Origin: Armatimonadota bacterium
Lineage (GTDB): Bacteria; Armatimonadota; UBA5829; JAUSEB01
Reading direction: 5' to 3'
Assembly: GCA_030649165.1 (NCBI GenBank)
Contig: JAUSGG010000073.1
Location: forward strand, 1-33,883
Length of the DNA stretch: 33,883 nt
Shown here: positions 4,675 through 27,907 of the stretch, one piece after another
Position numbering within the stretch: the stretch's first letter is position 1
Layout: each line of letters begins with the position of its first letter
Translations under genes and position numbers: made by a program
Notes under the pieces: generated by a model
Databases searched by the model: none
Told to the model about the DNA's origin: nothing
Seen by the model: the letters and a program-made list of their open reading frames with translations, nothing else

Positions 4675-4723
4675 TTCAAAGCAGAGGGTTGGTTAACTAT
4701 GGCAGCTTTCACCCTCACCCCAA

Positions 4724-4868: not shown

Positions 4869-4891
4869 TTGGGGTGGGGTCGATCCGGCGG

Positions 4892-4919: not shown

Positions 4920-4936
4920 TTGGAAAGGTAACGTAG

Positions 4937-5341: not shown

Positions 5342-5344
5342 GGC

Positions 5345-5445: not shown

Positions 5446-5452
5446 AGGTTCG

Positions 5453-6991: not shown

Positions 6992-7064
6992 TAGGGTCGC
7001 AGGTTTTCCGATCCTTCGGTAGCAGAGTGGCAGCGACGCTGCCGAAGGACGCGCAAGTACGACG

Positions 7065-8035: not shown

Positions 8036-10465
8036 CTAAGTTTTTGCGGCAATCTCAAACACCGCCGCATTTGTGGACTTCGCGGTGTCCACGCTTATCG
8101 TGTCCACCAGTGGGCTCCGCCGACCCGTGAGCCGGTCGATCAGGACCAGTCCCCTGCCCTGGTTTGGCAGTCGCTTACGGTCGATCCGCAGGGTAACCTT
8201 TTCGCCCAATCCCTGCTCGCTGTGAGTAAGCACGGTTATCAGCGCGATTCCAGCGCCTTTCTTCAGCCTATGAACACGCGCGGTTGTGGCTAGTTGCGGC
8301 TTTATCATAGCCTGATTTCCTTCCATGTCCATGCCGGGAATCAGACCAGCCGGCGATAAGGCAGGGCTGAGTTTGACGAGACTGTCCTCACGGACACCAT
8401 CGGCGTAGTAGTCTTCCACATCCGCAAGAAGCGTGTGCGCGTGGGAGAGGCCGACCATGAACTTCGCATCCACAAATGCGTACGTCCCAATGTAGTAGCC
8501 GATGCCCTTGACCGAATTGCCGGCGGAGCACATATCGAGTATCTTGAATCGGAGCGCCTGCGGATTCTCCAGCCTGCCTCCCATCGAGAGATAGAGCAGC
8601 GGAATGACGTCTGTACCACCATTGCTCCTGCCGAACACCTTCTCCGCCTCACCCTGCTTCAACTGGTCGAGATAGGCGGAACCATAGTAGTTCGCGGCGT
8701 ACCACTGCGGCATATTGTAGTCGAGCGAGCGGGCCCATTTCATGCGCTCCGCCGCGGTCAGTTCCTGGAATCCGGCGGGGCCGTACGTGTCCGCCGTATT
8801 GACGATCTTCACATTCGGATCGGCGCGGCGCATCTCCGCGGTCCACACGTCGATAACGCCGGTGTAAAGGTCCATGTTGAAAAGAATCCAGTCTCGCTTC
8901 CACTCGCCGTCGAGCTTTCCCAAAGTGACCTCGGTGGGAGCTACACCCTTGTACGCGGCAAAGGCAGCGAGCGTGGACGCATCGTAGCTGTATGGCATTC
9001 CTTCGAGGCCGTCGTTGATGAACCCGGAGTATCTGAACGGCAGGCCCTTCTCCACCGGCCTTCGCTGGGAACGAGTCCATGCCACCATCGTAGACTCCAT
9101 CCAGGCCCGGCCCCTGTTGGCGGCATAGTTGAGGTTGTATAACTCCTTCACGACCGTACCGTCTCGCCGGACGACGTACATATCCTTGCCGGCCAGCTCT
9201 TCAGAGGCCGCGCTGTAGGCCCCGCCGCCCGACACACTGATGAACTCGGAGAAGTTGGGCCAGAACCGGCGCACCCCACGGTTATAGGCCGCCAGAACGA
9301 CTTCTTCCTCCGCCGTAAGACCGTTTGGAGGCTTCTCCGGGGAAAGACCGTAGTCGCTCCAGACGTTCATGCCCATCATCTGAAACTGCGCCGGCAGGGC
9401 TTTCACACGTTCGTCTTTAGCCATCTGCCAGTTCTGGACGCAGTAGGGCACAGTGAAGAAGCGTTTGGGCGTCCGGGCGCGTTTCGGCGGATCGACCGGC
9501 ACGAGCGAGATCACTTCGCGCGCCAGCGTGGATTCGCCTTGAACGATTTCCATTATCAGCTTCGCATTCCTGGGAGGCGCGTCGGAGATCCAGCATCCTC
9601 CGAACCACAGAGGGTGGTCAGCGCCGCTGACAAATCTCGGCAGGGCAAAGGAATACCCGTGATATCGCCGTCCGTCGCGCGTTACGTTCTCCCTCCGCGG
9701 CTTGACTTCTTCCTCCTGCCGCATTCGATAACCGTTGATAACCGACTCGTTCAAACCTGAAAGCCGGACGGGGTCAGAGGCGAGGATGCGCATCACCGGC
9801 CTGTCGAGCTTGCTCGGCGCGAGGCAGGTGACGGCGAAGTTGACCCACTGTGGAGCGCCTTTAAGGCAGTACTGGATACCAACGGCCCTGTCCCTGCTGC
9901 TTGGAAACAGGTCGATATGCAGGACCGGCGACGAGGCGTCCGAGGCGGCGGTGATCTTCTCCAGCGATATATCGTCAAACGCGACCCCGTAGGAGCGGGA
10001 CAGGAATCCGGCCTCGTACTCCCCGGCCTCTCCGATCTCGAAATGCGCCCACAGCGGCGTGTAACGCTCGGAGGCCAGGGGCAGCACAACGGTCTCATCT
10101 CCCAGCGCCAATTCTATGGGTGAATAGTCCGGGGTGTTGTTCAACCTCGCCCACGCCGACAGCCGATAGGCCCCTGGCTCCAGCGTCACCTTCTGAGTCA
10201 AGTGAGTTTGCCTATCAGAAGAGTATATCTCGACGGCGTTGGCGCCGGTGCGAGGCCGGGCGTCGCCGTGGCCGCCGCCCTGAGCGGTTATGCGGTAGTG
10301 ATATGTTAGATTGCCGCCGTTGGCGTCCCTGATGGTCCAGTGCGCCGACCAACCGGCAGGATCTTCAAAACCGGGGTTCCTGAGCAGGTTTTGAGCGGAT
10401 GCGACCCCGTATCCAAGCACAAACAGCAATAGCAAAGCCGTGTTGACCGCGAAACCGCGTTTCAT
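8036..10465 (-). CDS. Secreted protein with N-terminal carbohydrate-binding-like domain and glycosidase-like barrel
   Basis: An 809-residue exported protein. The ATG at 10465 gives a good signal peptide (basic MKRG, then a Leu-rich core ending GVASAQ); the open frame extends 64 codons upstream but without signal-peptide logic. Residues ~25-175 (LLRNPGFEDP..W...W) match the galactose-binding/CBM-like jelly-roll style. A beta-rich segment follows, then a long region (~residues 300-680) with TIM-barrel-like patterns such as MGMNVWSDYG, RFWPNF, GFINDGLEG and VWTAEMRRADPNVKIVN, resembling GH42/GH5-type glycoside hydrolases. I cannot assign a GH family or confirm the catalytic Glu pair. It lies 50 bases after the stop of the large modular protein, so they are probably one operon. 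Likely role: action on an extracellular polysaccharide or glycoprotein. Confidence 0.7.
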   Translation of the reverse strand: MKRGFAVNTALLLLFVLGYGVASAQNLLRNPGFEDPAGWSAHWTIRDANGGNLTYHYRITAQGGGHGDARPRTGANAVEIYSSDRQTHLTQKVTLEPGAYRLSAWARLNNTPDYSPIELALGDETVVLPLASERYTPLWAHFEIGEAGEYEAGFLSRSYGVAFDDISLEKITAASDASSPVLHIDLFPSSRDRAVGIQYCLKGAPQWVNFAVTCLAPSKLDRPVMRILASDPVRLSGLNESVINGYRMRQEEEVKPRRENVTRDGRRYHGYSFALPRFVSGADHPLWFGGCWISDAPPRNAKLIMEIVQGESTLAREVISLVPVDPPKRARTPKRFFTVPYCVQNWQMAKDERVKALPAQFQMMGMNVWSDYGLSPEKPPNGLTAEEEVVLAAYNRGVRRFWPNFSEFISVSGGGAYSAASEELAGKDMYVVRRDGTVVKELYNLNYAANRGRAWMESTMVAWTRSQRRPVEKGLPFRYSGFINDGLEGMPYSYDASTLAAFAAYKGVAPTEVTLGKLDGEWKRDWILFNMDLYTGVIDVWTAEMRRADPNVKIVNTADTYGPAGFQELTAAERMKWARSLDYNMPQWYAANYYGSAYLDQLKQGEAEKVFGRSNGGTDVIPLLYLSMGGRLENPQALRFKILDMCSAGNSVKGIGYYIGTYAFVDAKFMVGLSHAHTLLADVEDYYADGVREDSLVKLSPALSPAGLIPGMDMEGNQAMIKPQLATTARVHRLKKGAGIALITVLTHSEQGLGEKVTLRIDRKRLPNQGRGLVLIDRLTGRRSPLVDTISVDTAKSTNAAVFEIAAKT

Positions 10466-10515
10466 AAGGTTTCTTACTCTGCGCGAGGAAGTAATACCTC
10501 CCCGGACCAGCCCGG

Positions 10516-10898
10516 CTACAGTAGTGGCGCTATGTCGCCAGATGAGCGCGCGCGAAGAAGCGGCAGAAGATCGCCGGACTCCCGGCGGCAGGAGCTTATG
10601 CCCGTAACTGCCACAAAGCGCCAATTGAGGTCGAGGTCGACGCTGTCCGGGACACATCCGACGACGACCGTGGAGCCATCGTCAACCGCGAACGTCCGTG
10701 CATCGATGTAAGTAAACTTGCCAAAACACCGGACGAGCAGTCCGATGTTGCTCAATCCCTGCCCGCCGACCACGCCTTCCTGGATCCCCATCGGTCCTCC
10801 TCCCATCCGGCGGCCACTGAGTCCAAGCGGGCCGGGCATAGTGAGCAGTTGGGAGACGATCTCCACTGTTGCGTTAGCCAGTTCCACTTCGCCGTCCC
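10516..10898 (-). pseudogene. Out-of-frame 3' end of the large modular protein (OB-fold modules)
   Basis: This frame encodes DGEVELANATVEIVSQ and on to SSGDIAPLL, and it matches the missing end of the upstream gene. In that gene's intact first OB pair, GLMTTYGEERMIDASVV is followed by a GLLVRVWGKV...VTGISSC segment. Here DGEVELANATVEI is followed by GLLVRCFGKF...VTGISSC. The join falls at the GGG run (CCC on + at 10896-10898). Dropping one G turns the upstream ATSGRR... into ATSDGEVEL and fuses the frames: 17269 to 10516 minus one base is exactly 2,251 codons. Either the strain carries a frameshift or this is a homopolymer sequence error. It has no start or ribosome site of its own. Confidence 0.8.
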
Positions 10899-13800
10899 GA
10901 AGTCGCGCCGACCACACCATTGACCGTGATTATGTCCCCCACTTCCACGGCCGCGTTGGAACCGATTCTGATCCCACACATGCGGCTAAGGTCTTGAGCG
11001 TAGAGGAACCCGCCCATTTGCTCCGGAGTCGCAGTGACGACCAACTCAGAAAGCCGCGCCGGAGCGCCCGACAGCCGTCGTCTGACCGCGCCGATTGAAG
11101 CAACAGCGGTGTCGGACCACTTGATGAGGACGATGTCCGACCTGCCGCGAGCCAGAACACGCCGGACAATCTGACCGCCCGCGGTCCTGAAGCAGGAGCT
11201 GATACCGGTAACCTGCACGAAGTCACCCGGCATGTAGCCGGTCGGGTCGCAGGCAACGCGAACTCCGGTGTTGGGATCGGCCCCCGTGGTCGTGCCGTCG
11301 GTCAGCGGTGAGCCGTCGTGGACGTAGAGATAATCCGGCCCGATCTGAGTCACTTTCCCCCAGACGCGAACCAGCAGGCCGATGTTGTTGATGCTTTGCG
11401 CTCCCGCGACCCCAACCTGGCCGCGCGGCGGCGGACCGGCCTGATACGAATAGGGCTTGCCGCCCAGCAGAGGGTGGTTCAAGCCAAGCGGACGAGGGTC
11501 TGAGCCACGTGCTGTGACAGTAACGACCGAGGCGTCGATCATCCGCTCTTCCCCGTAAGTCGTCATCAAACCTGAAACGTCCACCAGGTCACCGACCGCC
11601 GGCATGCCCTGGCTCCAACGGACTCCAATTCCTCCCATACGCTTCTCGTCTTGAATATAGAAGCAGTCGCCGAACACGGCGCTTACCTGTTTGCCCACGG
11701 TCTCGGCCCTGGCGCCGTCCTCGCACAGCTTGAGCGAGCATAGGGAATCAACCGTCGCTCCGCTCCCACTTAACTCAACCAGCGTCGACGGCTGTTCCGC
11801 GCCGAGCGTCGTGATCATAAGCGTCGCCTGCGAATGGCCTGCTGTCTGTGGCTGGTAAATCACGCCCAGATTTGTCTCTTGTCCCGGCGCAAGTGTGATC
11901 GGCAGCGTGGGAACGCCGTCCAGCTTGAAACCTGATACCCCGTTTGAAGATTGCGCAAGAGGCGGAGCCACAAAGACATCGTCGTAATAATAGTTGGTCT
12001 GCGTATACCACGCCGGCCCTACCAGGCCCACTCGACCGGAAAGTCGCATCGAGTCCGTGACCGTATCCACAAGATTTCCATTGATGTAGAACTGAAGCGT
12101 TGAACCGACGGCATTGACTGCCAGCGTATTGCGCGCGTCGAAGTCGCGTATGAACATCGTAGGGGTTGTGTTGCGAATATAGGCAAGGTTTCCGTTCACT
12201 TGCCTCCTGATATAGTAACCGAACTGGGTAGTATTCCCCATACGAATGCCAAACCAGTAACCGGATCCACGCCCAGCGGAGAAGTCGGAACTGTATCGGA
12301 ACGCGATGACAGGACCTTCCGCGGAACCCCCTCGCACGGTTGCGCTGTAGAAGAAGTCGCTGAAGTCGGAGCGGCTGTACGTCGCGATCACAGTGCGGTT
12401 GTAGGGAGGAACGGCCTGGTATTGTCCGTTGGACAGAGTCCAGCCCGCGTCCCAGTCCTCCTGCCAATCCTGCGCCAGACCATCGTCGAAGTTCTCCGCG
12501 TACGAGGCGAGGCGGATATCGGTTAAGGTCGCATCGCAACTCCCCGTGTTGCGAACGCGGGCTGTCTCTCTGTGGCTGGAACCCAGAGCGACTGCCCCAA
12601 ACGGGATGCGCAAGTCGTCTTGCGGCGGAAGGGAATCGTTAACGGCAATATCGCCCATACAGCACGGCGGATACGCGGACAGGTCACTAAACTGCAGCTC
12701 GTACGGAATCCCCTGCCCCTCTGACAGGCCTGCGATCCACTGATACAGGCCGGCAATCGCCAGGTAAGAGAGCCGAATTTCGCCATTGAAGAACAGCTCG
12801 ATCTGGAACGTGTTTCGGTTGCTCGGCGTGTACGCGTCAGGAATGTCAAGGTAGGTGATCGCCACCCTGTCGTCGGTCTGCTTGTACGAGACTGACCCGC
12901 CGGCCGCGGGATTAACATCGCAGAACATGCCGGAGACACGTTTCAGCCGGAAGTGGTTCGTCGGGTCACCGGCCCCGTTGGTGTCGCCCTCGTCCAAAGT
13001 GATGTATCCGTTGCTGCCGACGAAGAACGATGACCGGCTGTTTCCGTACAGGGAAACCTGCGCTCCGCCGGTGAGATTGACCTGAGCGTAGCTGTTGTCA
13101 CTAAGCGCCAGGGTTGTTCCCCCTGTTGGGTCAGTGGGTAGACTGGCTATGAGCGAAGTGCAGGCGGAATAGATATCCCGCGATCCATCAGGCGTAAATC
13201 TTACGGATGTGAACGCCAGGTCGGTAAGTGAGTATTTGATGAGGTACTTCTCGGTAAAGTAATCCCTGACCGGCACGACCTCGTAGCGATGATAGCCGGA
13301 CCCCGGATGTCTCGCCGTATTGCGGGCGACGGCCCCGTCCACCGCCTCCAGATGGTAGTCGATCACGTCACCAACTATGCCGCCGGGTATCGTGCCGTTG
13401 TACTGCTGCGAGGAACTGCTGTACGTCATTACAACCGGGGTAAAGGCTCCCCCGTTCTTGCTCCAGTACAACGTGACGCTCGCGACCCCGAGGTTGTCGG
13501 TCACTGCCGCGGAGACCGTTCTGCCCGATGTGCCGCTGGTATTAGGCAAAGGAGTGTGGGTTATGACCGGCGGCTGGTTGTCCGGCAGAAGCAAGAAGTC
13601 GGCGTCGGACACATCATTGATCGCGGGATCTTCGTTGAAAGATACCCTCACCCTATAGCGGTCCGATGAGGGACAGCCGGTAGTGTCCCAATTGTAAGAC
13701 GACGAATTGTAAACGACGGCCTCGGCGCCGGGTATACCGACCCACGTCGCTCCGCTGTCGGCGGAGTATTCGAATCGGACGGTGTCGTCCGGCTGCCAGT

Positions 13801-16800
13801 TGACGCCGCCGGAACTCCAGCGGATTTCGACCAGGTTGCCGGGCTCGTGCCACACGTTACCGTTTGGCTCGGTAATCCGCAGCGTTCTCGTGTCGCGGCA
13901 AGTGGACAAACGCTGATAGAACGGCGGATCGCCCGTAGAGGAGGTGGTGTAGGGCGGCGGATAGCCGCTTACCTCATAGCCAATCGTCGTGTCCCCAAAA
14001 ATGGTCTGAATGGGGTTCTGGTATGAGATATGGTAGGCCGTATGCGAGCCGGCGACACCGACCGCGATAATATAATACTTTCCGGGGGACAAAGCTACCG
14101 AAATCGGCCCGGAGCTGTACCAGCCGGCGCCGGTCACTGAACTCGCGACCGTGGTTTCGTGAATCTTTGCGTAGTTCCAATAGTCTGAGTCCGACTCGTA
14201 CGCGACAAACTTGAGTTCGACGGAAGAGGGAATGCTCAAATACTCCTCTATCTGCGTGAGCCGCGACTCGACCAAGCAATGAAAACGGTTCCCGCGACAG
14301 TAGGCGCCACCCGAGTCCGTGTAAGTCATTCCGCCTATAGTATCTACGCCGCAACGGGCAATTGAGAAACAGTGTGTGGACGACGGCCCGCCTGATGGCT
14401 CGACGGCGGCATTGTGGGCGGCAGAGCCGTCCGTCGCGGCGATATAGTAGCAGTACCGATCGTCAAGCAGGCTGGGACCGGGTATGTCGGCGCAATACTG
14501 GCCGTTGGAAAGGCTCATCGAGACAGCCGTGAAGGCCCCGCCGTTCTTGCTCCAATAGAGGGTTACGGAATCGACCCGGTAGTTGTCGGTCACGGCGGCG
14601 CACACCCGGTACGACCCTGTCAGATAGGGTGTATCCGCAAGCGCGGCATGGCTGATGACAGGCGCGATATTGTCCGTCGCAATCGCGAAATCGGCGTCGG
14701 AAGCGTCTTCCACCGCGGCGTCGCCGTTGTAGACGACCCTCACTCTGCACCACGTCGACTCGCCAATGCCGCTCGGCGTCCACAGGAAGGAGCCGGCGTT
14801 GTAGGGCAGGTTCCCCGCGCTCGGTATCTGCGACCACGTAGAACCGCCGTCGGTCGAATACTCGAGACGAACCGTGTTCGAGGGAAGCCAGTATGGTCCG
14901 CCGGATGTCCACCGGATTTCAACGCTTTCTCCCGGCTCAAACCATTCGCCGCCATTTGGCCCAGTAATAGTGAGCAGCCGCGGTATCGGACATGCCGACA
15001 CTCTCTGATAGTACACCGTCCCGGACTCGTTGTTTATCACAGTTGGACCGGGAGGGAAATAGCTCATATACACTCCGGCGCGAGACCGGCCGAAGGAAGT
15101 TGTTACCGGATGCCCTGGATAGCTGCCGTAAGACACGGCGGCGCCCTGCCACGCCGTACAGATCACATAGTAGCGTCCGGCTTGCATCGGAACGGAGATC
15201 GGTCCAGAGCTGTACCACGTGGCCCCGACGCCGGAATCCGCAACCACGGTCTCGTGTATCTTGTTGTAGCTGCCGCTGTAGACTGTCGATTCGTAGACGC
15301 AGTACCTGAGTTCCGTTGAAGTCGATATGTTGAAGTAATGCTCTATCTGCGTCAGCACGGAGGAGTACGTGCACTCGTACGCGTTACCCCTGGCATCTCC
15401 GGTTTCAGTACCGGAGAAAGACGCGCTTCCGATGGTGTCCGTCCTGCAGGTCGTCACGCCGAAGCAGCAGTCTTCGGACGGATCTCCCGCCGGATATGTA
15501 GCGATGTGTTGGGTCGCAGCCGTATCGCGAGCTTCTATATAATAGCAGTAGGAATCGCCGAAGTTGCCTGGACCGGGAATGTCCGCGCAGTACCCCGCGG
15601 GAGCGCCCGACGGCGTCATCGGAATAGTGTTGAAGCTGCCGCCGTTCCTTCGCCAGAACAGCGTAACCTGGCCCACTCCCACCTGGTCCGTGACTTGCGC
15701 GCATACCCGATAGGGACCGAGTTCGCTGTTGGTGTCGGCGAGTCGAGTATGCGCTATGACGGGCGGCGATGTGTCCGTTCGCACGGTAAAGTTCGCATCC
15801 GAGGCATCGCTGACCGAATCGTCGCCGTTCAGCGTCACACGGACCATGTATTGGTCCGACTCCGTATACCCCGCCGTGTTCCACGCGAACGAGCCGGCGG
15901 TGTAGGGCAGGCTTTCCGCGCCCGGTATCGGAGCCCACGTCGAGCCCCCGTCGGTCGAGTACTCCAGCCGCACGGTGTCCGAAGGTAGCCACGTCGAGCC
16001 TGTCGCCGTCCACTCTATGCTCAACGGTTGTCCAGGCTCATACCAAATGCTTCCGTTTGGCTGCGTTATGTTGAGGAACATCGTCTGCGGGCAAGCGGTA
16101 AGCCGCTGCGAGTATACGTAGGTATCGGCGTAATACGATGCCGGCGCGCTTGGTGGGTAGCCTAGCCTCCTATAGCCGCTTATTGTATGCCCGAAGTTGG
16201 TGGGCCTGGGATGACCATCGTACCCCATATAATGCGACGTCTGCGGCTGACTGGCCACCCCTATGATATAGTAATAGCCCGCAACAAGCGTGACCGAGAT
16301 CGGTCCCGAGTTATGCCAACGCGCTCCAGTTGGCGCGCCGGCAACCACTTTGGTGTACTTTGCGGTAAACGGCCCGCCGCCGGTCGACGACTCGAAGACG
16401 AAGTACGTGATCTCGCCTGAAACGCTTAAGGACAGATACTGCTCGATTCCTGCCAGCTTGGACTGTGTTTCGCAATAGTACGAGTTGCCGGACGACAAGC
16501 CGGAGGAAACATTGTAAGCGTTGATCTGTCCCACCGCCACCGGGCTGCACGAAGATATTGAAAAGCAGTGCAAAGAGCCGGGCGCCGAGCTTGGACTCCT
16601 GGTGACATACCCCGCCGCCGACGTATCCCGCGCCTCGATGTAATAGCAGTACTGGTCTTCTTGAACCGACGGGCCGGGGATTTCCGCGCGGAACTCATTG
16701 GCGACTCCCGAGGCTGCCATAGCCGTCGACGTGAACGAGCCGCCGTTCCTCCGCCAATACAGCGTCGCCGAGGCCACTCCTTTGTTATCGGTGATGACAG

Positions 16801-17269
16801 CGCGGACGCGATATGGTCCGGCTCGATTCGGCGTATTGCCAAGAGTGGTATGCGTGATAACAGGCGGACTGCTGTCGACCTGGATGGCGAAGTTGGCATC
16901 CGAGGCGTCAGAAGCGGAGCCTGAATTCGAGGTAACTCTGACCCTGTACCACAGGGAAGTCGAGCGTCCCGCGGTGTCCCACGAATACGAGGCGACGTTA
17001 TAGGGAACGTGGTTTGCGCCCTGAATTCCTCTCCAACTGGCGCCGCTATCGCTTGAATACTCCAGCTTTACCGTATTGTTGCTCTGCCAGTCGGACCCGC
17101 TGAAGCTCCAGCGGATTTGCGCCGTCTCGCCCGGCTCGAACCATTCGCCGCCGTTTGGGCTGATCAGTGTTAACGTACGAGCGGAAACGACCTGGGTACA
17201 GATTGCGACAAAAGCTGCAATCAGTGCGGCGAGAAAGATCAGCCGCGCACGACTGAGGGATACCGTCAC
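10874..17269 (-). CDS. Giant secreted modular protein: four Ig/Kre9-like modules, HYDIN-like domain with LamG-like insert, OB folds
   Basis: As read, 2,131 residues, stopping early through a one-base frameshift (intact form about 2,250). The GTG at 17269 with AAAGGTGGG upstream gives a signal peptide ending VVSA. Four tandem modules of ~366 residues start near residues 33, 400, 768 and 1131. Each begins PNG..W.EPG...I.W (Kre9/KNH-like), then an SDASDANF link and SPPVI.H..L..T with a VTLYW..NGG.F Ig-like domain. Modules 1-3 continue into a Cys-containing domain with SGPISV and YYVI motifs; the fourth lacks it. Then come an FVGSNGYITL domain, a choice-of-anchor-D/HYDIN-like domain split by a LamG-like jelly roll (~1590-1768), and OB-fold pairs (GDLVDVSG, GDFVQVTG, GDIITVNG). 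No PEP-CTERM tag or membrane anchor is visible. A cell-surface or matrix role is inferred. Confidence 0.75.
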   Translation of the reverse strand: MTVSLSRARLIFLAALIAAFVAICTQVVSARTLTLISPNGGEWFEPGETAQIRWSFSGSDWQSNNTVKLEYSSDSGASWRGIQGANHVPYNVASYSWDTAGRSTSLWYRVRVTSNSGSASDASDANFAIQVDSSPPVITHTTLGNTPNRAGPYRVRAVITDNKGVASATLYWRRNGGSFTSTAMAASGVANEFRAEIPGPSVQEDQYCYYIEARDTSAAGYVTRSPSSAPGSLHCFSISSCSPVAVGQINAYNVSSGLSSGNSYYCETQSKLAGIEQYLSLSVSGEITYFVFESSTGGGPFTAKYTKVVAGAPTGARWHNSGPISVTLVAGYYYIIGVASQPQTSHYMGYDGHPRPTNFGHTISGYRRLGYPPSAPASYYADTYVYSQRLTACPQTMFLNITQPNGSIWYEPGQPLSIEWTATGSTWLPSDTVRLEYSTDGGSTWAPIPGAESLPYTAGSFAWNTAGYTESDQYMVRVTLNGDDSVSDASDANFTVRTDTSPPVIAHTRLADTNSELGPYRVCAQVTDQVGVGQVTLFWRRNGGSFNTIPMTPSGAPAGYCADIPGPGNFGDSYCYYIEARDTAATQHIATYPAGDPSEDCCFGVTTCRTDTIGSASFSGTETGDARGNAYECTYSSVLTQIEHYFNISTSTELRYCVYESTVYSGSYNKIHETVVADSGVGATWYSSGPISVPMQAGRYYVICTAWQGAAVSYGSYPGHPVTTSFGRSRAGVYMSYFPPGPTVINNESGTVYYQRVSACPIPRLLTITGPNGGEWFEPGESVEIRWTSGGPYWLPSNTVRLEYSTDGGSTWSQIPSAGNLPYNAGSFLWTPSGIGESTWCRVRVVYNGDAAVEDASDADFAIATDNIAPVISHAALADTPYLTGSYRVCAAVTDNYRVDSVTLYWSKNGGAFTAVSMSLSNGQYCADIPGPSLLDDRYCYYIAATDGSAAHNAAVEPSGGPSSTHCFSIARCGVDTIGGMTYTDSGGAYCRGNRFHCLVESRLTQIEEYLSIPSSVELKFVAYESDSDYWNYAKIHETTVASSVTGAGWYSSGPISVALSPGKYYIIAVGVAGSHTAYHISYQNPIQTIFGDTTIGYEVSGYPPPYTTSSTGDPPFYQRLSTCRDTRTLRITEPNGNVWHEPGNLVEIRWSSGGVNWQPDDTVRFEYSADSGATWVGIPGAEAVVYNSSSYNWDTTGCPSSDRYRVRVSFNEDPAINDVSDADFLLLPDNQPPVITHTPLPNTSGTSGRTVSAAVTDNLGVASVTLYWSKNGGAFTPVVMTYSSSSQQYNGTIPGGIVGDVIDYHLEAVDGAVARNTARHPGSGYHRYEVVPVRDYFTEKYLIKYSLTDLAFTSVRFTPDGSRDIYSACTSLIASLPTDPTGGTTLALSDNSYAQVNLTGGAQVSLYGNSRSSFFVGSNGYITLDEGDTNGAGDPTNHFRLKRVSGMFCDVNPAAGGSVSYKQTDDRVAITYLDIPDAYTPSNRNTFQIELFFNGEIRLSYLAIAGLYQWIAGLSEGQGIPYELQFSDLSAYPPCCMGDIAVNDSLPPQDDLRIPFGAVALGSSHRETARVRNTGSCDATLTDIRLASYAENFDDGLAQDWQEDWDAGWTLSNGQYQAVPPYNRTVIATYSRSDFSDFFYSATVRGGSAEGPVIAFRYSSDFSAGRGSGYWFGIRMGNTTQFGYYIRRQVNGNLAYIRNTTPTMFIRDFDARNTLAVNAVGSTLQFYINGNLVDTVTDSMRLSGRVGLVGPAWYTQTNYYYDDVFVAPPLAQSSNGVSGFKLDGVPTLPITLAPGQETNLGVIYQPQTAGHSQATLMITTLGAEQPSTLVELSGSGATVDSLCSLKLCEDGARAETVGKQVSAVFGDCFYIQDEKRMGGIGVRWSQGMPAVGDLVDVSGLMTTYGEERMIDASVVTVTARGSDPRPLGLNHPLLGGKPYSYQAGPPPRGQVGVAGAQSINNIGLLVRVWGKVTQIGPDYLYVHDGSPLTDGTTTGADPNTGVRVACDPTGYMPGDFVQVTGISSCFRTAGGQIVRRVLARGRSDIVLIKWSDTAVASIGAVRRRLSGAPARLSELVVTATPEQMGGFLYAQDLSRMCGIRIGSNAAVEVGDIITVNGVVGATSGRRSGTG

Positions 17270-17372
17270 GGCGCCCACCTTTCGCTCAAGGTTTTGGTCA
17301 GCGCGTCTCCACCACACGCGCAGGCAACCTCGCGAATCGTCAATTCGCCTGCTCGCCAGCGAACACATAACA

Positions 17373-18948: not shown

Positions 18949-21114
18949 TTAGTACCTGTGCGACCAGGCGAAGCGAATGAGGCCAAATCGACCGCTCTGA
19001 CCGGAATCGATACCATCTTCCCAGTCAGAGACCGAGAAGTCAACCCGGAGTTCCTCCTTGGGCGAGATCTCATAGCCGAAACCGAGAGTATACCTGCGCT
19101 CGGTTATATCGACCGGAGTCCAGACGGGACCGACGGGAAGGTCTGCCCCCGCGCCAGTGGTCAAATCGATCAGAGTCCTGCCTTCAGACTTGGCATTGGT
19201 GAACCGGCCGTACACGCGCCACTTCGGACGAAAGGCGTACGCCAGTCCCAAGCTCCAAACGTGGTCCTCAGCGTCGTACGGAGCAAAGTCCGGGAACAGG
19301 TTAGGCAGCCGGCTGGCGGCGCTCGCGCTCGAGCCGATCACGAAGAGCGTTCTGGCCTCCGCGTCCACAAGTCCGTAGTTCACGTCCAGAGTGAGCTTGG
19401 GTGTAGGCGCGTACCAAGCCCCTATGGTCGTGGTCGTCATATTGTTCCGGAAGTTTTGTCCCGCCGCCGCTATTCGCAGCTCTTGGTACTCGGTCGCGGT
19501 GAGAATGTCGCTCGAACCATCTGCGAAGGTCACGCTGACCTGGCTTTCGTCGACACCGGGAGTAAGAGGGTCATCAACGGCCAAAACCTCCGTTGCGGTG
19601 GGAACCGGGTCCACCCGGATTTCGTCGTTATGCTCCTTCCAGCGGTTGTAGTTTGCGAACAGCGCGAAGTTGTCGCGCGCGAGGTAGGTCGCTTCCAAGT
19701 TCAGGCTGTCGCGGTCTGACGCAGCCCCGCCGAACTCGGGGCCGTCGATATTCCACTTCTCCCATTTGCCCGACATGCTGAGCTTCGCGCTGGGGTAATA
19801 GCGCGCGCCGAGGCGCCAGATGTCCGAGTTGGTTGACTCGCTCGTGAACGGGTGCTCGAATCCATCGTCTTCGGGATCGTCGTGCAGCGGATGAATCGGG
19901 CTTTGGTCGCGGTCGATATCCCGGTTCTCGAACGACGCGCTCAGAAACGCCCGACGGATGCCGGTGTATGAGGCGTCGAGGGACAGGGCCGATTCATCAC
20001 GCGAAGTCGCCTGGTTGTCGGCAAAGCCGAGGGCGTCCAGAACGGGCGGAACCAGGTTCGTTAGCTGGTACTTGCGATATCGCCCGGTCAGACTAAGCGA
20101 GTTCGTTGCAAGGAACGACAGGGCGACATTGGTAGAGTCGATATCCACCGCGTTCGTCCGTGCAACCGGAAGTCCCGTTAATGTGCTCAGAGTCGAGGTC
20201 CGGTTCTCTCGATTGCGCGAAATCTGAACGCCTGTGAAGTACAGCCTGTCGGTAATCCTGCTGCGCGCCTTCACGGCGTGCACGTCCGTCTCGGTGTCTG
20301 GCTGGATGATCCTGCTCAACGCCGGGAACGGCGGCTGAAAGGCGCCTGTCACAGGCGTGCCCGCGTCATCGCTGAACCGAATGTGTGAGAAACGATAGCT
20401 CAACGCGGACGATTTCCCCAGCGTCAGGTCGGTCCCCACCGATCCTTCGTTTGTGTCCCTGTCGATGAGCAACGCTCCGCCGTACCTGGTTCTGTTAACT
20501 ATCCCCGCTGGGAAAGACTCACCCGGCAACAGAGTCCGTGAGCGGAAAAGGACTTGCCGAGACCCGTCCTCATGCTCCTGCCACCATGTTCCGAGAAGTC
20601 GAACCTTTTGCCCCTTCCACGGCGTCAGACTCAGCGCGGCGTCATTCACCCGCCGGTCGATTTGGAACTGTGTGGTATTCGGTATCAGGTCGATGAAGAA
20701 GTCTCCGTCCGCCGGCGGTGTGCCCGCCGGTGTTCCCGCGAGAAACGGGTTGATAGCGGGAATTCTGTCCAGCCGGTGTAACAACGCGTCCGTTCCCAGA
20801 TGCAGGCGTATCGCGTTCTCCAGACTCAGGTCAAGATCCGCCTTTTCGTCCTGGATGATCAGATCCCGAATCCCGAGCGAATAGGCGAGCCCACCCGTGT
20901 AACCATAGGTGTCGAGCTGTTCTATCCCAAGATCGAACAACCTGCCGTCGTACTCCCGGACCCAAGACTGGTTGCCGGAATCATCGTGGTGGTACACGCC
21001 CATGCGAAGGTCCGTGACATCGTCCTGGCCGTTCAACATATCCACCTGGGCAACGGCAGGAACACAAGTCGTGAGCGCAATTGCGCAAAGCAAACAGATG
21101 ATATGCAATTTCAT
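18949..21114 (-). CDS. MtrB/PioB-like outer-membrane beta-barrel
   Basis: A 721-residue outer-membrane protein. A signal peptide (MKLHIICLLCAIALTTCVPAVAQ) precedes a short N-terminal region, then a long series of alternating amphipathic strands with aromatic girdle residues (KVRLLGTWWQEH, ALSYRFSHIRFSD, LSLTGRYRKYQLT, FALFANYNRWKEH, WRVYGRFTNAKSE). The chain ends with an aromatic residue (RFAWSHRY), the outer-membrane insertion signal. Size and pairing with a decaheme cytochrome 29 bases upstream match the MtrB/PioB family, whose barrel sheaths the cytochrome to carry electrons across the outer membrane. The N-terminal CxxC seen in some MtrB proteins is absent. The ATG at 21114 follows AGGAGG 10 bases upstream. 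Family assignment rests on context plus barrel features. Confidence 0.78.
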   Translation of the reverse strand: MKLHIICLLCAIALTTCVPAVAQVDMLNGQDDVTDLRMGVYHHDDSGNQSWVREYDGRLFDLGIEQLDTYGYTGGLAYSLGIRDLIIQDEKADLDLSLENAIRLHLGTDALLHRLDRIPAINPFLAGTPAGTPPADGDFFIDLIPNTTQFQIDRRVNDAALSLTPWKGQKVRLLGTWWQEHEDGSRQVLFRSRTLLPGESFPAGIVNRTRYGGALLIDRDTNEGSVGTDLTLGKSSALSYRFSHIRFSDDAGTPVTGAFQPPFPALSRIIQPDTETDVHAVKARSRITDRLYFTGVQISRNRENRTSTLSTLTGLPVARTNAVDIDSTNVALSFLATNSLSLTGRYRKYQLTNLVPPVLDALGFADNQATSRDESALSLDASYTGIRRAFLSASFENRDIDRDQSPIHPLHDDPEDDGFEHPFTSESTNSDIWRLGARYYPSAKLSMSGKWEKWNIDGPEFGGAASDRDSLNLEATYLARDNFALFANYNRWKEHNDEIRVDPVPTATEVLAVDDPLTPGVDESQVSVTFADGSSDILTATEYQELRIAAAGQNFRNNMTTTTIGAWYAPTPKLTLDVNYGLVDAEARTLFVIGSSASAASRLPNLFPDFAPYDAEDHVWSLGLAYAFRPKWRVYGRFTNAKSEGRTLIDLTTGAGADLPVGPVWTPVDITERRYTLGFGYEISPKEELRVDFSVSDWEDGIDSGQSGRFGLIRFAWSHRY

Positions 21115-21143
21115 TGTCGTTGTCGCCTCCTATTCCTGCCCTA

Positions 21144-22265
21144 TTAGTAATGCAACGCCTGATGCCGGTCAGACCCGTGGATCGAGCCGTGGCAGTCGGT
21201 GCATTCGGTGTAATATCTGGAAAAAGTCGTGGGCGCGCCGAGAGCGCCGCTGCTGCTGTGAGGGCCGGCGTGGCACTTGAGACACAGGAACGGCTGACTC
21301 TGGGTCAGCAGCTTGTTCTGGACAGACCCGTGAGGCTTATGGCAGATACTGCAATCCTCATTGACGGGCGGGTGCTCGAAAGTGAAAGGACCGACCTTTT
21401 CGGCGTGGCATCTGGCGCAAGTGTCCTGCACGGATTCCTCGCGCAGCATATTGTTCGGTCCGCCGTGCGGATTGTGGCAGTCGCTGCACTTCATCTTTCC
21501 CTCGACTAACGGGTGATGTGAAGGCATGCGCGACTGCGCCTGCTGAGCTTTGTGGCAGTTGTAGCACATAAACGGCTCAGCGGCTTTGTGATATTCGGTC
21601 TCAGCTCCTTTAGCGTCGGCCTCAAGCTTCGCTCGCTTCTCCTGCAGCTTCGCGACTTGCGCAAGAGCTTCCGTCTTCTCGGAGATGCCCTCGTCTGCGA
21701 TGCCCGATCTCAACTGCGCTTCTTTGATTGTCTTGTTCAACCCCTCGACAGCTATCGTGGCGCTCTGCATGTCGGTGAGGAGAGTTCGAGCGTCCAGGCT
21801 GTGGGGATTGTGGCAGTTCATACAGGTGAGCTTAGCGCGAGCGTGTCTGCCGGTCGCCCACAGCATGGTCTTCTCCTGCGTGTGGCACTTGAGGCAAACC
21901 GCCGACGACTTCTCACTATTGAGCTTGCTAAGATTGACGATGCCCACGCCGCGTCCGCCTCCGGCGGCGACGTGCGCGCTGCCCGGCCCATGACAGGCTT
22001 CGCAGCCCTTGCGCGACGCTTCAGTATTGAAAAGCGTCTTCCTGTGGATAGTCAGAGCCCATTTCTTTGCTACGTCGGCGTGGCAGGTGGCGCAGGCCTC
22101 AGAACCCACGTACTGGGGCTGTTCCTCCGCCGTTGAAGGCTTCGGGGAATAGCACACCCATAGAGCTGCGATCGCCGCCGACAGAAGCACGGTGTACACC
22201 GATCTGTTTTTCATCAATAGCCCGCGCCAGTTGACCCTTGGTTGACACGTGCGCAACCGGGTCAC
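21144..22265 (-). CDS. Decaheme c-type cytochrome, MtrA/DmsE family, with coiled-coil insert
   Basis: A 373-residue exported multiheme cytochrome with exactly ten CXXCH heme sites, beginning at about residues 58, 88, 124, 148, 234, 260, 283, 305, 328 and 355 (CATCH, CEACH, CLKCH, CMNCH, CYNCH, CSDCH, CARCH, CSICH, CLKCH, CTDCH). Ten hemes and a barrel partner downstream are the MtrA/DmsE hallmark: a periplasmic wire inserted in the barrel. Other heme gaps are about 22-36 residues, but sites 4 and 5 are 86 apart. The extra stretch (~157-227) is charged, Lys/Glu/Ala-rich and helical, with heptad-like LNKTIKEAQL and LAQVAKLQEKRAKLEADAK. The GTG at 22265 is preferred because AAAGGAGGTGA lies 5 bases upstream. 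An ATG at 22214 directly before the hydrophobic signal helix is an alternative. No outer-surface MtrC-like partner is in the window. Confidence 0.87.
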   Translation of the reverse strand: MTRLRTCQPRVNWRGLLMKNRSVYTVLLSAAIAALWVCYSPKPSTAEEQPQYVGSEACATCHADVAKKWALTIHRKTLFNTEASRKGCEACHGPGSAHVAAGGGRGVGIVNLSKLNSEKSSAVCLKCHTQEKTMLWATGRHARAKLTCMNCHNPHSLDARTLLTDMQSATIAVEGLNKTIKEAQLRSGIADEGISEKTEALAQVAKLQEKRAKLEADAKGAETEYHKAAEPFMCYNCHKAQQAQSRMPSHHPLVEGKMKCSDCHNPHGGPNNMLREESVQDTCARCHAEKVGPFTFEHPPVNEDCSICHKPHGSVQNKLLTQSQPFLCLKCHAGPHSSSGALGAPTTFSRYYTECTDCHGSIHGSDRHQALHY

Positions 22266-22458
22266 TGGCTTCACCTCCTTTAAGGCTAGCTGGATCTGAT
22301 CAGGAAACGTCCAGCCTTTTCTCATCCCTGAACGGAGCTCACTGCGCAAGCTCGGCGCTGGTGTTATGTTTTCCCGTTTTGGCGTGATGCGAATCGCTTA
22401 GCGCTCACCTCCTTTCGGTCGCGCCAAACGGGATCAAGCTTTGTGCCATGTCGCACAA
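22266..22458 (-). promoter_or_regulatory. Structured leader of the cytochrome operon with two perfect ribosome sites
   Basis: From the predicted start near 22458 the leader RNA is about 190 nt. An 11-bp long-range stem pairs CCCGTTTGGCG (22432-22422) with CGCCAAAACGGG (22384-22373, one bulged A). It encloses AAAGGAGGTGAG (22415-22404), a perfect Shine-Dalgarno with no usable ATG after it. A small GAGCT/AGCTC hairpin follows (22353-22335). A hairpin at 22318-22282 (AAGG/CCTT and CTGGA/TCCAG) then directly precedes a second AAAGGAGGTGA at 22281-22271, which serves the GTG at 22265. Translational control by ribosome decoy or ligand is possible; it fits no riboswitch class I can recognise. Confidence 0.5.
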
Positions 22459-22921: not shown

Positions 22922-25051
22922 TTACTTGAACTGCGGGAGGATGATTCCTCTGAGGATTATCTGCTGGCAGAAGACGAATATGAGCAGGGTCGGTATGGAG
23001 GCCAGGACAAGCGCCGCCATCATCATCGACGAGTCGCCGCCCATGGAGAACTGGAAGAGGTAGACCATGAGGGTCCACATCTCCTCTTTCCGGCAGACAA
23101 GGTACGCCCACATAAACCCACCGTAGGCGGCGGTGAACGAACCCAGCGCGTTGATTGCAAGGATCGGCTTAATCAGCGGGATCGCCACATTCCACAACTG
23201 CCTCAGCTCCCCTGCCCCATCGATCCTCGCCGCTTCGAACAGCTCCTCCGGCAGGCTGTCGAAGAAGCTCTTGAGGATGAAAATGCCGAAGCCGTTGGCA
23301 AGTCCGGGCAGCACCAGCGCCCAATACGTATTGAACAGGTGGAGGTGCTTGAGCATCAGGAAGCTTGGCAGGGCGGCCACGTCGCCGGGAAACGCCATGG
23401 TCGCGATCAGGAACAGCAGTACTTTGTAGGTATAAGGCAGCCGGAATCTGGACAAGACAAACGCCGCCATCGGCGTGACTGTCAGGTGTGTTCCCACCGT
23501 CATCAGCACCAGGATGAGGGTGTTCAACGCGGCACGTCCCTTTAGGGCCAGGTAGTTGAACACCGCCTTGAAGTTCCGGGTGGCGTAGATCCAGCGAAGC
23601 TGTCTGTGCTGATCGAAAACCTCGATGAAGTCGGTCTCTCTGTAAGGCGGGAATATAGTCTCCAGGGACCGTGCGCCGAGTCCCTGGGCTCTGTTTATCC
23701 CGTCGAGCGATCCGTACTTCTTGGCAAGGAACTCTCTGTAGAGCTGTTCGGAATCTATGATCTGAATATGCTGAATGGGAAGCTTGGTCTTGACGAAGGT
23801 CGCCCATTCGATCGTCCGCTGGAACTTCGGCGTCAATTCCCGATGCGCCAGTTTCCGGAACTTCCTGACGGAGTCCACGGTCGGAAGCGTCTCAATCCCG
23901 CCTACCTCAGCCTCGTGCACAGGCAGATAGGCGGGCAGTTCGATCGGGAATAAGTCCGGGGCATCAAACGATGAGAAACTCGTCCTCCACGCTTTGTTGA
24001 CCTTCTCAATAGTCCCGTATCTCCTCCTGAGATGATCCACGAAAAGGTCTTGGCCGCCTGTTGCGCGCAGGTAACGAGCAGACCACATCGTTCGCACGAA
24101 TTCTTCCCACGCTTCGGCTTCGGCCGGATTCAAGGGTACTGAGCCCGGCAGAGGGACCTCGCGCAACTTGGTCGCGACGATGCCGTACGTCTTGCGCAGA
24201 GCCGGAATCGTCACCTTTTCGCCATCTTCCGGGGCCAGATCGATTCGTTTCAGAAGAAGCCGCTGGTAGTCGAACCTACCGGCCAACGTTTGCCGCCACT
24301 CCGGTTTCGTACGTGCTTTGAAAGCATACCAGTCCATTTGTCGCAGAAGCACCGGCTCGTCAAGCTTTCCAGTGTTGAGTTTCTCATCTATCGAGCCGCT
24401 GGCCCACCAGTCGGGTCTCAGGAGAATATCCATGCCCGGTCCCGGGGATGAGCCGAGTAAAGAGCCCGGGTAGAACGATGTAAAGGTGTCGCCGTAAGCG
24501 TTGTTCAGTGCGTCGATGTTGCGGTAGCGCTTCTCCATCAACTCACCGAACGCGTGGAAGGGCTCGCCGGGCAGCATCGGCCCCCCCAGCAAACAAAGGT
24601 TGAAGTAGTTAGGGCTGAGGGTCTTGCGAAATTCGTTGTAGTCGTCTACTCGGCGCCTGATCTTCGGGTCGCGCCCGTTGAACCGGGGCGCTTTAGTGTA
24701 TTTCCCTTTGGCGTTCTGCGCGTGCCAGCCGCCGATGTCCCTGGCAGTGTAGAGTTCCTCGCCGTACCGGTCGCTCAACTCCTGGAGGGCCCAGTTGATC
24801 ATCCCGTCGGCTCTGATTCCCGAATTATACTTCTCGGCCACGTACTTGCGGTGCAGCAGACCGTCGTCCGTAAAATACTTCGGCAACACGCGCATGTCGT
24901 CGAAGTCGACGGCCGACGTAAACCCCGACGATACCATCAACGCAAACGGGTACACGACGGTGAGCGCGCCGGCCGCGACCACCAGGTAGAGCAGAAATAA
25001 TACCAGCCTTAGTTTCCAGCCTCGCCGTCCTACTACCGGTATGATTGGCAT
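22922..25051 (-). CDS. MalG-type sugar ABC permease with ~440-residue extracytoplasmic insertion
   Basis: A 709-residue inner-membrane permease of the CUT1 family, about 430 residues longer than normal MalG (~280). One N-terminal helix (~15-40, ending YPFALMVSSGF as in MalG) is followed by residues ~45-480 outside the membrane. The usual MalG core then resumes (LNTLILVLMTVGTHLTVTPMAAFVLSRFR) with the cytoplasmic EAA loop EAARIDGAGELRQLWNVAIP that docks the ATPase. The insert repeats a pattern at ~172-194 (KRYRNIDALNNAYGDTFTSF), ~343-362 (RRYGTIEKVNKAWRTSFSSF) and ~444-465 (KKYGSLDGIN...). This resembles the RYG..E.LN.AWGT.F segment of GH42-type beta-galactosidases. The ATG at 25051 follows CAGGAG. 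It lies 12 bases after the fused binding protein-permease gene: same operon, same importer. Confidence 0.87.
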   Translation of the reverse strand: MPIIPVVGRRGWKLRLVLFLLYLVVAAGALTVVYPFALMVSSGFTSAVDFDDMRVLPKYFTDDGLLHRKYVAEKYNSGIRADGMINWALQELSDRYGEELYTARDIGGWHAQNAKGKYTKAPRFNGRDPKIRRRVDDYNEFRKTLSPNYFNLCLLGGPMLPGEPFHAFGELMEKRYRNIDALNNAYGDTFTSFYPGSLLGSSPGPGMDILLRPDWWASGSIDEKLNTGKLDEPVLLRQMDWYAFKARTKPEWRQTLAGRFDYQRLLLKRIDLAPEDGEKVTIPALRKTYGIVATKLREVPLPGSVPLNPAEAEAWEEFVRTMWSARYLRATGGQDLFVDHLRRRYGTIEKVNKAWRTSFSSFDAPDLFPIELPAYLPVHEAEVGGIETLPTVDSVRKFRKLAHRELTPKFQRTIEWATFVKTKLPIQHIQIIDSEQLYREFLAKKYGSLDGINRAQGLGARSLETIFPPYRETDFIEVFDQHRQLRWIYATRNFKAVFNYLALKGRAALNTLILVLMTVGTHLTVTPMAAFVLSRFRLPYTYKVLLFLIATMAFPGDVAALPSFLMLKHLHLFNTYWALVLPGLANGFGIFILKSFFDSLPEELFEAARIDGAGELRQLWNVAIPLIKPILAINALGSFTAAYGGFMWAYLVCRKEEMWTLMVYLFQFSMGGDSSMMMAALVLASIPTLLIFVFCQQIILRGIILPQFK

Positions 25052-25063: not shown

Positions 25064-27814
25064 CTACTCCCCCTGCTCCGCCGTTGAGAACTTCATCCTC
25101 GCAAAGATCCGCATCTGCATTACGGCAAATCCAACGAGCAGGGACGCCAGCATCCACGCAATGGCCGTAGACTGGCCGTAGTTCGCAAGAACATAACTCT
25201 GGTACCAGAGCTCCAGCCCCATGACGTGAGTCGCATGATCGGGTCCGCCGCCTGTCATGATCAGGATGCCCCCCATGCCGTGAAACGCTCCAATGAAGGC
25301 CCCTACGAAGTTGATCAGGACAAGAGGGAATATGGCAGGCAGCGTCACGTGCCAGGCCTTCTGGAATATCCCCGCCCCGTCCAGGTCCGCTGCGTCATAC
25401 TGCTCCTCGGGAACAGCTTTCAGTGCGGCAAGATAGATGATACAACCCGGCCCCATGCCGCCCCAGACGCCAGGCAGTATGCACGCCGCCATCGCCAGCC
25501 TTGGATTGGTGAGCCACTGCTGGGCGTGCAGAAGCGGGACATGCCACGGTATGTGAAGCAGTTGCAGAAGCTCGTTGATGTGTGTGATGATGTTGGGGTT
25601 CAGACTGAGCAAGACCCTGTTCATCAGCCCCAATTCCGTCGGGTCGTAGAACCTCTTCCACAGGAGTATCGTCACGATCCCCGTTGTCAGCGCCGGCAGA
25701 TAGTAGAGGGTTCTGAACAAGGTCTTGCCTTTTGGAATCTCGGACAAGAGCAAAGCCAGTGTTATGGGAAGCGCAAAGCCCATTGCCAAGCTCAGACCCA
25801 CAAATATGAAAGTGTTCTTCCACGCAAGCCAGAACAGCGGCCTCATCGCCACCCTGATGAAGTTCTCCAGGCCCACCCACTCGCTGCCGCCCATTATGTG
25901 CACGTTCATGAAAGCCATCACTGAGCCCCAGGCCACTGGGATATACTGCCAGAGAAAGACCGAGAGAATCGCAGGCGCCAGGAACAACCACGCGAGAACG
26001 TGCTTCGACTTGGGAAGCTTCTTTCTGTAGACCTTTTCCCGTTCGGCCGCCAGATCCTCATTCCCCCTCAACTGCGCCCTCAGCATGAACGCGCCGCCGC
26101 CTACCATTATCGCAGCCAGCAATACGACGACCGCAAACGCAATCTTCTCGTTGCGGGCCCATTCCTGAGGCGTCGGTGTGTAGAGGTACGAGCGGCTTAC
26201 GACATTCTGGACCTTCCTCAGTTGCCCTTCGATGTCATGCTTGCCCGGCCTTATAAGGTCTCTGCACGGTCCATCCATCTCAAGCAGGATAGACGGCAGG
26301 CCAGGGGGGCTTGGAAGAACGCGAGCATTGGCAAATATCTGTTTGTAGGCGATCGCCCAATCTTCCGGCACCTGGTCGATCACCTTCTGTGGGTAGCCAT
26401 ACTGTCTAAGAATATCGGGGTTGACATACCGAGCGACCCCGTTATCGACGAAGTATTTCGTCTTCTCCCTCTCGCCCTCGTCACCGCACATATAGGAAAT
26501 ATACTCCCAGGCGGCGGCGGTGATCTTCCTGTTGAGGATCTCGTCGGGTCCGACCGCGCCGAAGGCCTTCATCGCTATGCCGCGATAGTCCGAAGCGACC
26601 GGCAGAGTGTCTCCCGGCGCCAGAATAGGATCCTGCTTGGTGGGTTCTCTGCCGTCGGTCGTGTAGTGTATCTCAACACCCGGTGTGGTTTTCAGCGTGG
26701 ATTTAATGCCGAAGACCGTGCCGCCGATCCTGGCAACGTATCTTCCTTCCGGCCCGGGGTACCTGGGGAAAGGCACGATGCCGAACTTCAGAGGGTCCTT
26801 GTAGACGCGCTCGTTGAAAACGCTCCACAGGGTATTGCCCGACATGGCGACAATTCCCTCTTCCATAAGATCGCGTTGATCGAGCGTCTGCGCCGCTCTC
26901 TGTCCGCTGCCCTGGGTGGCGGCGCGAGACATCTCGGTGATCCCTTTGATGCGCCTTCCCTTGGGATCGGTCCATTCGCCCCAGCACAGCTTCTCCATGA
27001 ACTTCATAGAGCGTACGACCGGCTCTGAGGTTAGCCGCGTCTCCCACGTTCCATCGGGGTGTTTCACGGCCCAATCTCCGCCCGCCATCGGCGGAAGTCC
27101 CTGCAAGAACCATCCGTACAGGTAAACGTCCATCGCCCAATGTTTGGGGTAATGCGTTTCCAGATCGATGTCCGCATCGTACAGCTTCTTCCCGAACTCC
27201 CACAACTCGTCCCAGTCGCGCGGCCCTCTCGTCAGACCGACTTCACGAAACCGCTTCCTGTTGTAGAGCATGCAGTCCGCGCCTACACAAAACGGGAGCG
27301 CGTAGATGTGCTTCTTGCCGTCCGGGCCAACGGCGCTGCACAGATCCCGCACCGGACCCGTCAGCCGATACTTCGCCTGAGGCCAACTGGCGACGTAATC
27401 GTCCAAAGGCATCAGAAAGCCTTCGTGCACCGCCTTGGTGATCTCTTCGGACTGCAGGCTGATCACGTCCTCAGCCGCGTCACCTACCATGGACATAGTC
27501 AGGCTGGCGCCCGCGACGTCCATCCCGGGCGGCAGCTTCAGGCTGGTCAACATTTTGAGCTGAATGTGAGGGCGGTCCTGGAAGAACTTCTTGTTGATAA
27601 CGGAGTTGGCCCGCCATTCGATCTTCGGTGAGCCTTCCGATATCCATAGACTCGTGAACCGCAGCGGCACTTTTTCTATCTTCTTACCGGCTGCCTGGGA
27701 CGGTTTCGGAACGTTCACATGCTTCTTGGAACAGGATGTGAGCAGTACGGAGAGACTTGCGACGACCAGCGCTAAGCAAACGCCGCGGAGGGATCTGGAA
27801 CTGAAACACAACAT
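25064..27814 (-). CDS. Fused solute-binding lipoprotein and MalF-type permease
   Basis: A 916-residue fusion. Residues 1-28 are a lipoprotein signal peptide with lipobox LTSC (Cys28). Residues ~48-550 are a family 1 (MalE-like) sugar-binding domain (WISEGSPKIEW, DVISLQSEEITKAVHEGFLMPLDDYV, YALPFCVGADCMLYNRKRF, EGIVAMSGNTLW). Inside it, ~379-418, is a chitobiase/hexosaminidase C-terminal-like insert (VEIHYTTDGREPTKQDP). A membrane helix (~556-580) and charged linker lead to a complete MalF-like permease (~605-910) with the EAA loop EEQYDAADLDGAGIFQKAWH. If the Cys28 lipid anchor is used, the binding domain is tethered twice. The start at 27814 is chosen because the promoter (27878-27907) lies inside the longer open frame and the signal peptide begins here. 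No ATPase is adjacent, so a shared MsmX/UgpC-like ATPase is inferred. Confidence 0.88.
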   Translation of the reverse strand: MLCFSSRSLRGVCLALVVASLSVLLTSCSKKHVNVPKPSQAAGKKIEKVPLRFTSLWISEGSPKIEWRANSVINKKFFQDRPHIQLKMLTSLKLPPGMDVAGASLTMSMVGDAAEDVISLQSEEITKAVHEGFLMPLDDYVASWPQAKYRLTGPVRDLCSAVGPDGKKHIYALPFCVGADCMLYNRKRFREVGLTRGPRDWDELWEFGKKLYDADIDLETHYPKHWAMDVYLYGWFLQGLPPMAGGDWAVKHPDGTWETRLTSEPVVRSMKFMEKLCWGEWTDPKGRRIKGITEMSRAATQGSGQRAAQTLDQRDLMEEGIVAMSGNTLWSVFNERVYKDPLKFGIVPFPRYPGPEGRYVARIGGTVFGIKSTLKTTPGVEIHYTTDGREPTKQDPILAPGDTLPVASDYRGIAMKAFGAVGPDEILNRKITAAAWEYISYMCGDEGEREKTKYFVDNGVARYVNPDILRQYGYPQKVIDQVPEDWAIAYKQIFANARVLPSPPGLPSILLEMDGPCRDLIRPGKHDIEGQLRKVQNVVSRSYLYTPTPQEWARNEKIAFAVVVLLAAIMVGGGAFMLRAQLRGNEDLAAEREKVYRKKLPKSKHVLAWLFLAPAILSVFLWQYIPVAWGSVMAFMNVHIMGGSEWVGLENFIRVAMRPLFWLAWKNTFIFVGLSLAMGFALPITLALLLSEIPKGKTLFRTLYYLPALTTGIVTILLWKRFYDPTELGLMNRVLLSLNPNIITHINELLQLLHIPWHVPLLHAQQWLTNPRLAMAACILPGVWGGMGPGCIIYLAALKAVPEEQYDAADLDGAGIFQKAWHVTLPAIFPLVLINFVGAFIGAFHGMGGILIMTGGGPDHATHVMGLELWYQSYVLANYGQSTAIAWMLASLLVGFAVMQMRIFARMKFSTAEQGE

Positions 27815-27877: not shown

Positions 27878-27907
27878 ATTATAGCGTCCATCCGGGGATA
27901 AGGTCAA
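27878..27907 (-). promoter_or_regulatory. Sigma70-type promoter of the ABC importer operon
   Basis: TTGACC (27907-27902 on -), 18 bp, then a perfect TATAAT (27883-27878). The predicted start is about 57 bases upstream of the ATG at 27814. Confidence 0.8.

Follow-up and report, generated by a model that had tools for sequence, protein, structure and literature searches.

The window analysed here, a stretch of 33,883 nucleotides from an Armatimonadota bacterium (contig JAUSGG010000073.1 of assembly GCA_030649165.1), encodes a solute-binding domain and a MalF-type permease in a single reading frame, followed by a MalG-type partner whose P1 loop is enlarged by an array of repeats. The layout is a real single-frame fusion, in which binding domain and permease are present in a 1:1 ratio by construction. 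Together, the two proteins likely represent a carbohydrate ABC importer of the CUT1 (type I) class, whose single binding domain is permanently tethered and would dock on the enlarged MalG loop; the ATPase would be a shared orphan MalK. As judged from sequence comparisons, the fusion and the MalG insert are both old and mark the same transporter family.

Architecture of the fusion protein

The fusion protein (P0001) is encoded at 25064..27814; this and all further coordinates of the transporter pair and its promoter refer to the minus strand. The gene translates into 916 residues plus a stop codon with no internal stops, and Pfam matches SBP_bac_1 at residues 105-364 (PF01547, 55.4 bits) and BPD_transp_1 at residues 699-899 (38.4 bits) in this one frame. 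Translation, Pfam, NCBIfam and an AlphaFold2 model (mean pLDDT 80.7, 27 sequences) agree on the architecture proposed in an earlier sequence-only reading, namely a signal, a complete MalE-like domain, a helix with a linker and a complete MalF-like permease, uninterrupted by any stop or frame break between the halves. The promoter and start described there also fit together: a candidate sigma-70-type promoter of the transporter pair, defined by consensus match only (TTGACC-18-TATAAT, 27878..27907, 11/12 in a consensus scan), is followed by the ATG at 27814, about 60 nt in the 3' direction.

Behind the signal peptide (residues 1-28, 27731..27814), the sequence of which contains a lipobox, LLTS-C28, the protein continues with the MalE-type solute-binding domain (residues about 46-547, 26174..27679), as assigned by SBP_bac_1 and by comparing the model with solved sugar-binding proteins. 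Residues 45-547 are modelled as a complete two-lobed domain, which matches solved oligosaccharide-binding proteins of the MalE type with Z values of up to 32 (366 residues, 3.0 A), so both the Pfam and the fold match identify the binding domain expected in a CUT1 importer. An insert of about 53 residues within this domain resembles CHB_HEX_C_1 and Fn3_assoc (residues about 376-428, 26531..26689; PF13290, 25.3 bits; PF13287, 23.5 bits); it lies in frame, is of low pLDDT and uncertain in the model, and is missing in the alignment from the two nearest relatives (63-65% identity). The Pfam family of this insert is also represented elsewhere in the genome, in a few further large proteins.

The matched binding fold ends at residue 547, about 13 residues ahead of the hydrophobic membrane tether (residues about 560-582, 26069..26137), which was recognized by hydropathy and as a helix of the model; there, a long helix (549-595) leads up to the permease helices. 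The adjoining basic linker (residues 583-605, 26000..26068) is predicted to be cytoplasmic by the positive-inside rule. The MalF/UgpA-type transmembrane domain occupies the remainder of the protein (residues 606-916, 25067..25999), as indicated by Pfam, NCBIfam and the model. NCBIfam aligns residues 605-904 with UgpA and residues 645-903 with positions 263-514 of E. coli MalF, and since the latter alignment begins at position 263, the permease half is devoid of the large P2 loop of the E. coli protein. Its EAA (coupling) loop, EEQYDAADLDGAGIFQKAWHVTLP (residues about 804-830, 25325..25405), is evident from sequence and conservation, and the transporter consists of distinct MalF- and MalG-type halves which each carry such a loop, as is typical of CUT1 systems.

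Fate of the lipid anchor and of the tether

Close to the signal peptide, 4 of 33 fusions show a tetrad resembling a lipobox, which is clear in three and doubtful in one; the others have ordinary signal peptides. A lipid anchor as a family trait is ruled out by this distribution. The lipobox reported for P0001 in the sequence-only reading is indeed present, but the tethering at both ends that had been derived from it is left unsupported and, because the lipobox is not conserved, would be a local trait at most. This also bears on the idea that the finished fusion protein is cut in two, giving a permease on its own and a binding protein that is free or lipid-anchored, which would result in an ordinary CUT1 importer in the cell. 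The lipobox of P0001 would suffice to anchor the released binding domain, but a membrane helix and a linker join the halves in all fusions viewed, most relatives are without a lipobox and no cleavage site came up in an unsystematic inspection, which makes such a cleavage very improbable.

The MalG partner and its repeat array

The gene for the partner protein P0002 (22922..25051, 709 aa) starts 12 nt behind the stop codon of the fusion gene. Pfam, NCBIfam, the tree and the model all identify P0002 as a MalG/UgpE-type permease with a large insert in its P1 loop. The sequence-only reading was correct with respect to the fusion, but overlooked this altered partner. E. coli MalG is matched by 264 residues of the P0002 model (Z value 21.3, model range 12-709). 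The insert separates TM1 from TM2 (residues about 46-495, 23567..24916, about 450 aa; predicted to be periplasmic), and a fold search of the PDB with the full-length model yielded matches to the permease part only.

The insert is a tandem array, as established with a repeat-unit profile built from 41 units of relatives only, excluding the window and its sister. On P0002, this profile recovers three clear units at residues 131-193 (24473..24661, 26.3 bits), 305-364 (23960..24139, 52.6 bits) and 415-474 (23630..23809, 45.2 bits), compared to 8.1 bits for the best of 500 shuffles, and two degenerate units in addition. The relatives contain up to five or six units at a spacing of about 70 residues. 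Each unit is modelled in P0002 as helix, short strand, helix and helix, and its final pair of helices is similar to one stretch of GH42 beta-galactosidases, GH14 beta-amylases, GH86-type agarases and a GH167 enzyme, with the best match to GH42 (E 8.5e-8); the numbers GH14, GH86 and GH42, but not GH167, were deduced from enzyme names. The second clear unit is itself GH42-like (PF02449, 31.8 bits). However, the PF02449 match covers positions 151-193 only, which are 43 of 376 model positions, and therefore no enzyme is claimed for the insert. A helix-loop-helix segment of about 40 residues is what recurs from the GH42 enzymes, whereas their complete catalytic barrel is missing, which rules out the insert as a complete GH42 enzyme. 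Large frames in related genomes are recognized by the repeat profile as well, and these may represent glycosidases.

Among the outer parts of ABC importers, an array whose building block is otherwise a glycosidase segment is unusual. It may be asked whether the array binds carbohydrates or guides glycans, so that long polymers would be held in place for the tethered domain. Such a role would be compatible with the tethered importer favoured here, and it would fit the profile matches to glycosidases over one helical segment as well as the glycosidase genes found near several homologues. It remains rather doubtful, as about 40 residues are held in common without any catalytic part, and a structural or docking role would account for the same facts.

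Distribution and phylogeny of the fusion

When the MalF half alone was used to query 291 genomes of the phylum (E <= 1e-60), 121 of them gave matches, and among the matches listed the frames comprise 756-1139 aa with one exception of 513 aa. Two relatives from the same family of genomes show the same architecture at 63-65% identity, as do dozens of relatives at greater distance. In a collection of named genomes, the same layout occurs in Armatimonadetes/Fimbriimonadaceae, Phycisphaeraceae, Verrucomicrobia, Lentisphaerae, Cloacimonadota and a MAG labelled Chlamydiae, and below these fusions the matches fall to ordinary separate MalF genes. The database search suggested in the sequence-only reading therefore places the architecture in 121/291 genomes of the phylum and in further phyla of the named collection; the same reading had allowed for relatives that mostly carry two genes, which is not the case, as the fusion is the rule in its clade. 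Separate genes as the rule in the clade are ruled out by the 121/291-genome search. Since the layout is common to the relatives, it is not a sequencing join, and a frame error or an assembly join is ruled out as the cause of the fusion. None of the plasmid records searched spans the whole fusion.

A tree of 75 MalF sequences unites 30 fusions in a single clade (support 1.0, stem 0.62) which takes in MAGs of Planctomycetota, Verrucomicrobiota, Lentisphaerota and Cloacimonadota, with taxon labels as given in the records. The separate-gene MalFs of this tree are those recovered by the same search, so their sampling is non-exhaustive. The single well-supported clade argues for an old and inherited fusion in the window. 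Two more fusions of the same genome, on contigs C42 (L022:4900-7215, 772 aa) and C239 (L023:4979-7435, 819 aa), fall among the separate MalFs instead, on branches that are weakly supported. Their position outside the clade suggests that other fusions probably arose independently, and as judged from these placements a fusion of binding protein and MalF probably came about more than once.

Some further loci may be noted here. The MalG partner of C239 (437 aa) has extra N-terminal hydrophobic segments, and contig C37 of the same genome (L021:5451-9713) contains a paralogous pair that belongs to the subfamily of the window's transporter, an 827-aa fusion and a 592-aa MalG with insert, adjoining a 683-aa WG-repeat protein. 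Two fusion homologues contain one internal stop each (TAA at G028:C24:15335-16243, TGA at G220:C1:2619447-2620196), perhaps through decay or sequencing errors. Record L042 (SYKE01000135.1), labelled Actinomycetota, appears to be the same 34,443-base contig as G059 from the phylum of the window, so its label looks wrong and single record labels are not to be trusted. The affiliation of the window's own genome was assessed by an rpoB tree, in which it groups together with same-phylum genomes and with records of Fimbriimonadaceae and Armatimonadetes (support 1.0), which indicates that it belongs to the Armatimonadota; two wrong-strand rows in this tree (Cohnella and Phycisphaeraceae) lie outside this group.

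The MalG partners of the fusions are likewise united in a single clade (support 1.0, stem 0.75). All members of this clade of MalGs with insert have a conserved permease domain that begins 300-400 residues later than in ordinary MalGs. A MalG permease domain is present 1.2-1.6 kb downstream of the fusion stop in all 19 testable distinct loci outside a subclade of the Fimbriimonadaceae and their neighbours. In this subclade, none of seven loci (two of them with little room) shows an adjacent MalG, and related MalGs are encoded elsewhere in the genome, so the pairing rests on relatedness there. The fusion and the MalG array appear to be hallmarks of one and the same family, and a joint function of the two is thereby suggested.

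Comparison with known transporters

The sequence-only reading pointed out that these parts are normally separate proteins in CUT1 importers. The fusion is not without precedent, as a fusion of MalE to MalF is already known and reported to be transport-competent (Licht 2019, as cited in PMC7756565 and PMC9045158). Like P0001, the fusion of Bdellovibrio bacteriovorus carries a single MalE-type domain on MalF in one frame and is of the CUT1 type. The binding domain of P0001 matches the Bdellovibrio MalE domain (PDB 6ffl, which we take to be the protein of that study) with a Z value of 28.8 over 371 residues at 16% identity. The MalG of the Bdellovibrio system is an ordinary one, in contrast to the MalG with repeat insert described here. 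A description of the wide fusion clade and of its coupling with a repeat-bearing MalG was not found in the literature, the coverage of which was partial; a literature search for such fusions in Planctomycetes or Armatimonadetes, likewise of partial coverage, returned nothing relevant. We consider it unlikely, though worth stating, that these transporters form an undescribed CUT1 subfamily of Armatimonadota and PVC-type bacteria in which the tethered domain and a glycosidase-derived MalG array would capture or thread polymeric glycans.

The E. coli systems MalEFGK2 and UgpBAEC share the permease folds, the EAA loops and the fold of the binding domain with the fusion system, but their binding protein is separate. 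Moreover, the P2 loop of E. coli MalF is missing here, whereas the P1 loop of MalG is larger by about 450 residues. E. coli MalE contacts both MalF P2 and MalG P1 (Daus 2007, listed in PMC3150292). Covalent attachment of the binding domain to the permease is also found in OpuA and GlnPQ, which belong to other importer families with other substrates and do not show an enlarged partner loop. OpuA is built in the same manner, its binding domain being tethered by a short linker of 11 residues and a hydrophobic transmembrane anchor (PMC11065425). These transporters contain two or more binding domains because their permeases are homodimeric. The permease of the window is not homodimeric, as a different MalG-type gene without a binding domain adjoins the fusion in nearly all loci.

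ATPase, substrate and proposed mode of action

The genome yielded a single OB_MalK protein, encoded by an orphan gene (387 aa, L041:742-1905), compared to 17 permease-domain matches, which makes a shared ATPase of the MsmX kind the natural inference. A sensor or signalling complex that looks like a transporter, but whose permease pair is no longer engaged in transport, would be in line with the lack of a linked ATPase gene, with the unusual outer domains and with a cytochrome-porin pair that is conserved as neighbour in two genera. Nevertheless, the EAA loops are kept in both halves across the clade, as expected if the ATPase still binds, and a MalK is present in the genome, so we regard a complex of this kind as extremely unlikely. 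As for the substrate of the tethered importer, genes for GH94, GH106, GH38, GH42M and Gfo/Idh/MocA proteins occur near several homologues, and no glycosidase gene adjoins the transporter pair within the window. Family membership and the neighbours of the homologues suggest a putative carbohydrate substrate.

The tethered binding domain would capture an oligosaccharide, swing on its short tether and dock on the outer face of the MalF-MalG pair. There, the MalG P1 array may take over the steadying role of E. coli MalF P2 and MalG P1, as suggested by its position, and the shared orphan ATPase of the MalK/MsmX type, the gene of which is unlinked, would power the transporter. Capture kinetics and specificity may be altered by the fusion, as proposed in the sequence-only reading. 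Affinity in ordinary importers is set by a free binding protein which is present in large excess and is able to supply several transporters. Here, the tethering would keep the domain at a high local concentration and thereby substitute for this excess, and a native family with one binding domain per heterodimer would make it testable whether release of the binding protein is required in every transport cycle.

Genomic neighbourhood

The transporter pair is followed by genes for an MtrB/PioB-type outer-membrane porin and a multiheme (CXXCH) cytochrome (18949-22349, minus strand), the order of which is kept in the other genus of the window's family (L025:704-3991). The cytochrome gene seems to have its own promoter-like site (22494-22466). 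Further along, a 2164-aa frame with weak matches to Reelin-repeat and Ig-like domains (10874-17368, minus strand) adjoins an 873-aa frame without Pfam matches (8036-10657). Finally, genes for a sugar-isomerase-like TIM barrel, a HEPN protein and an FGGY sugar kinase stand in a row with a transaldolase-like gene on the plus strand (3817-7816).
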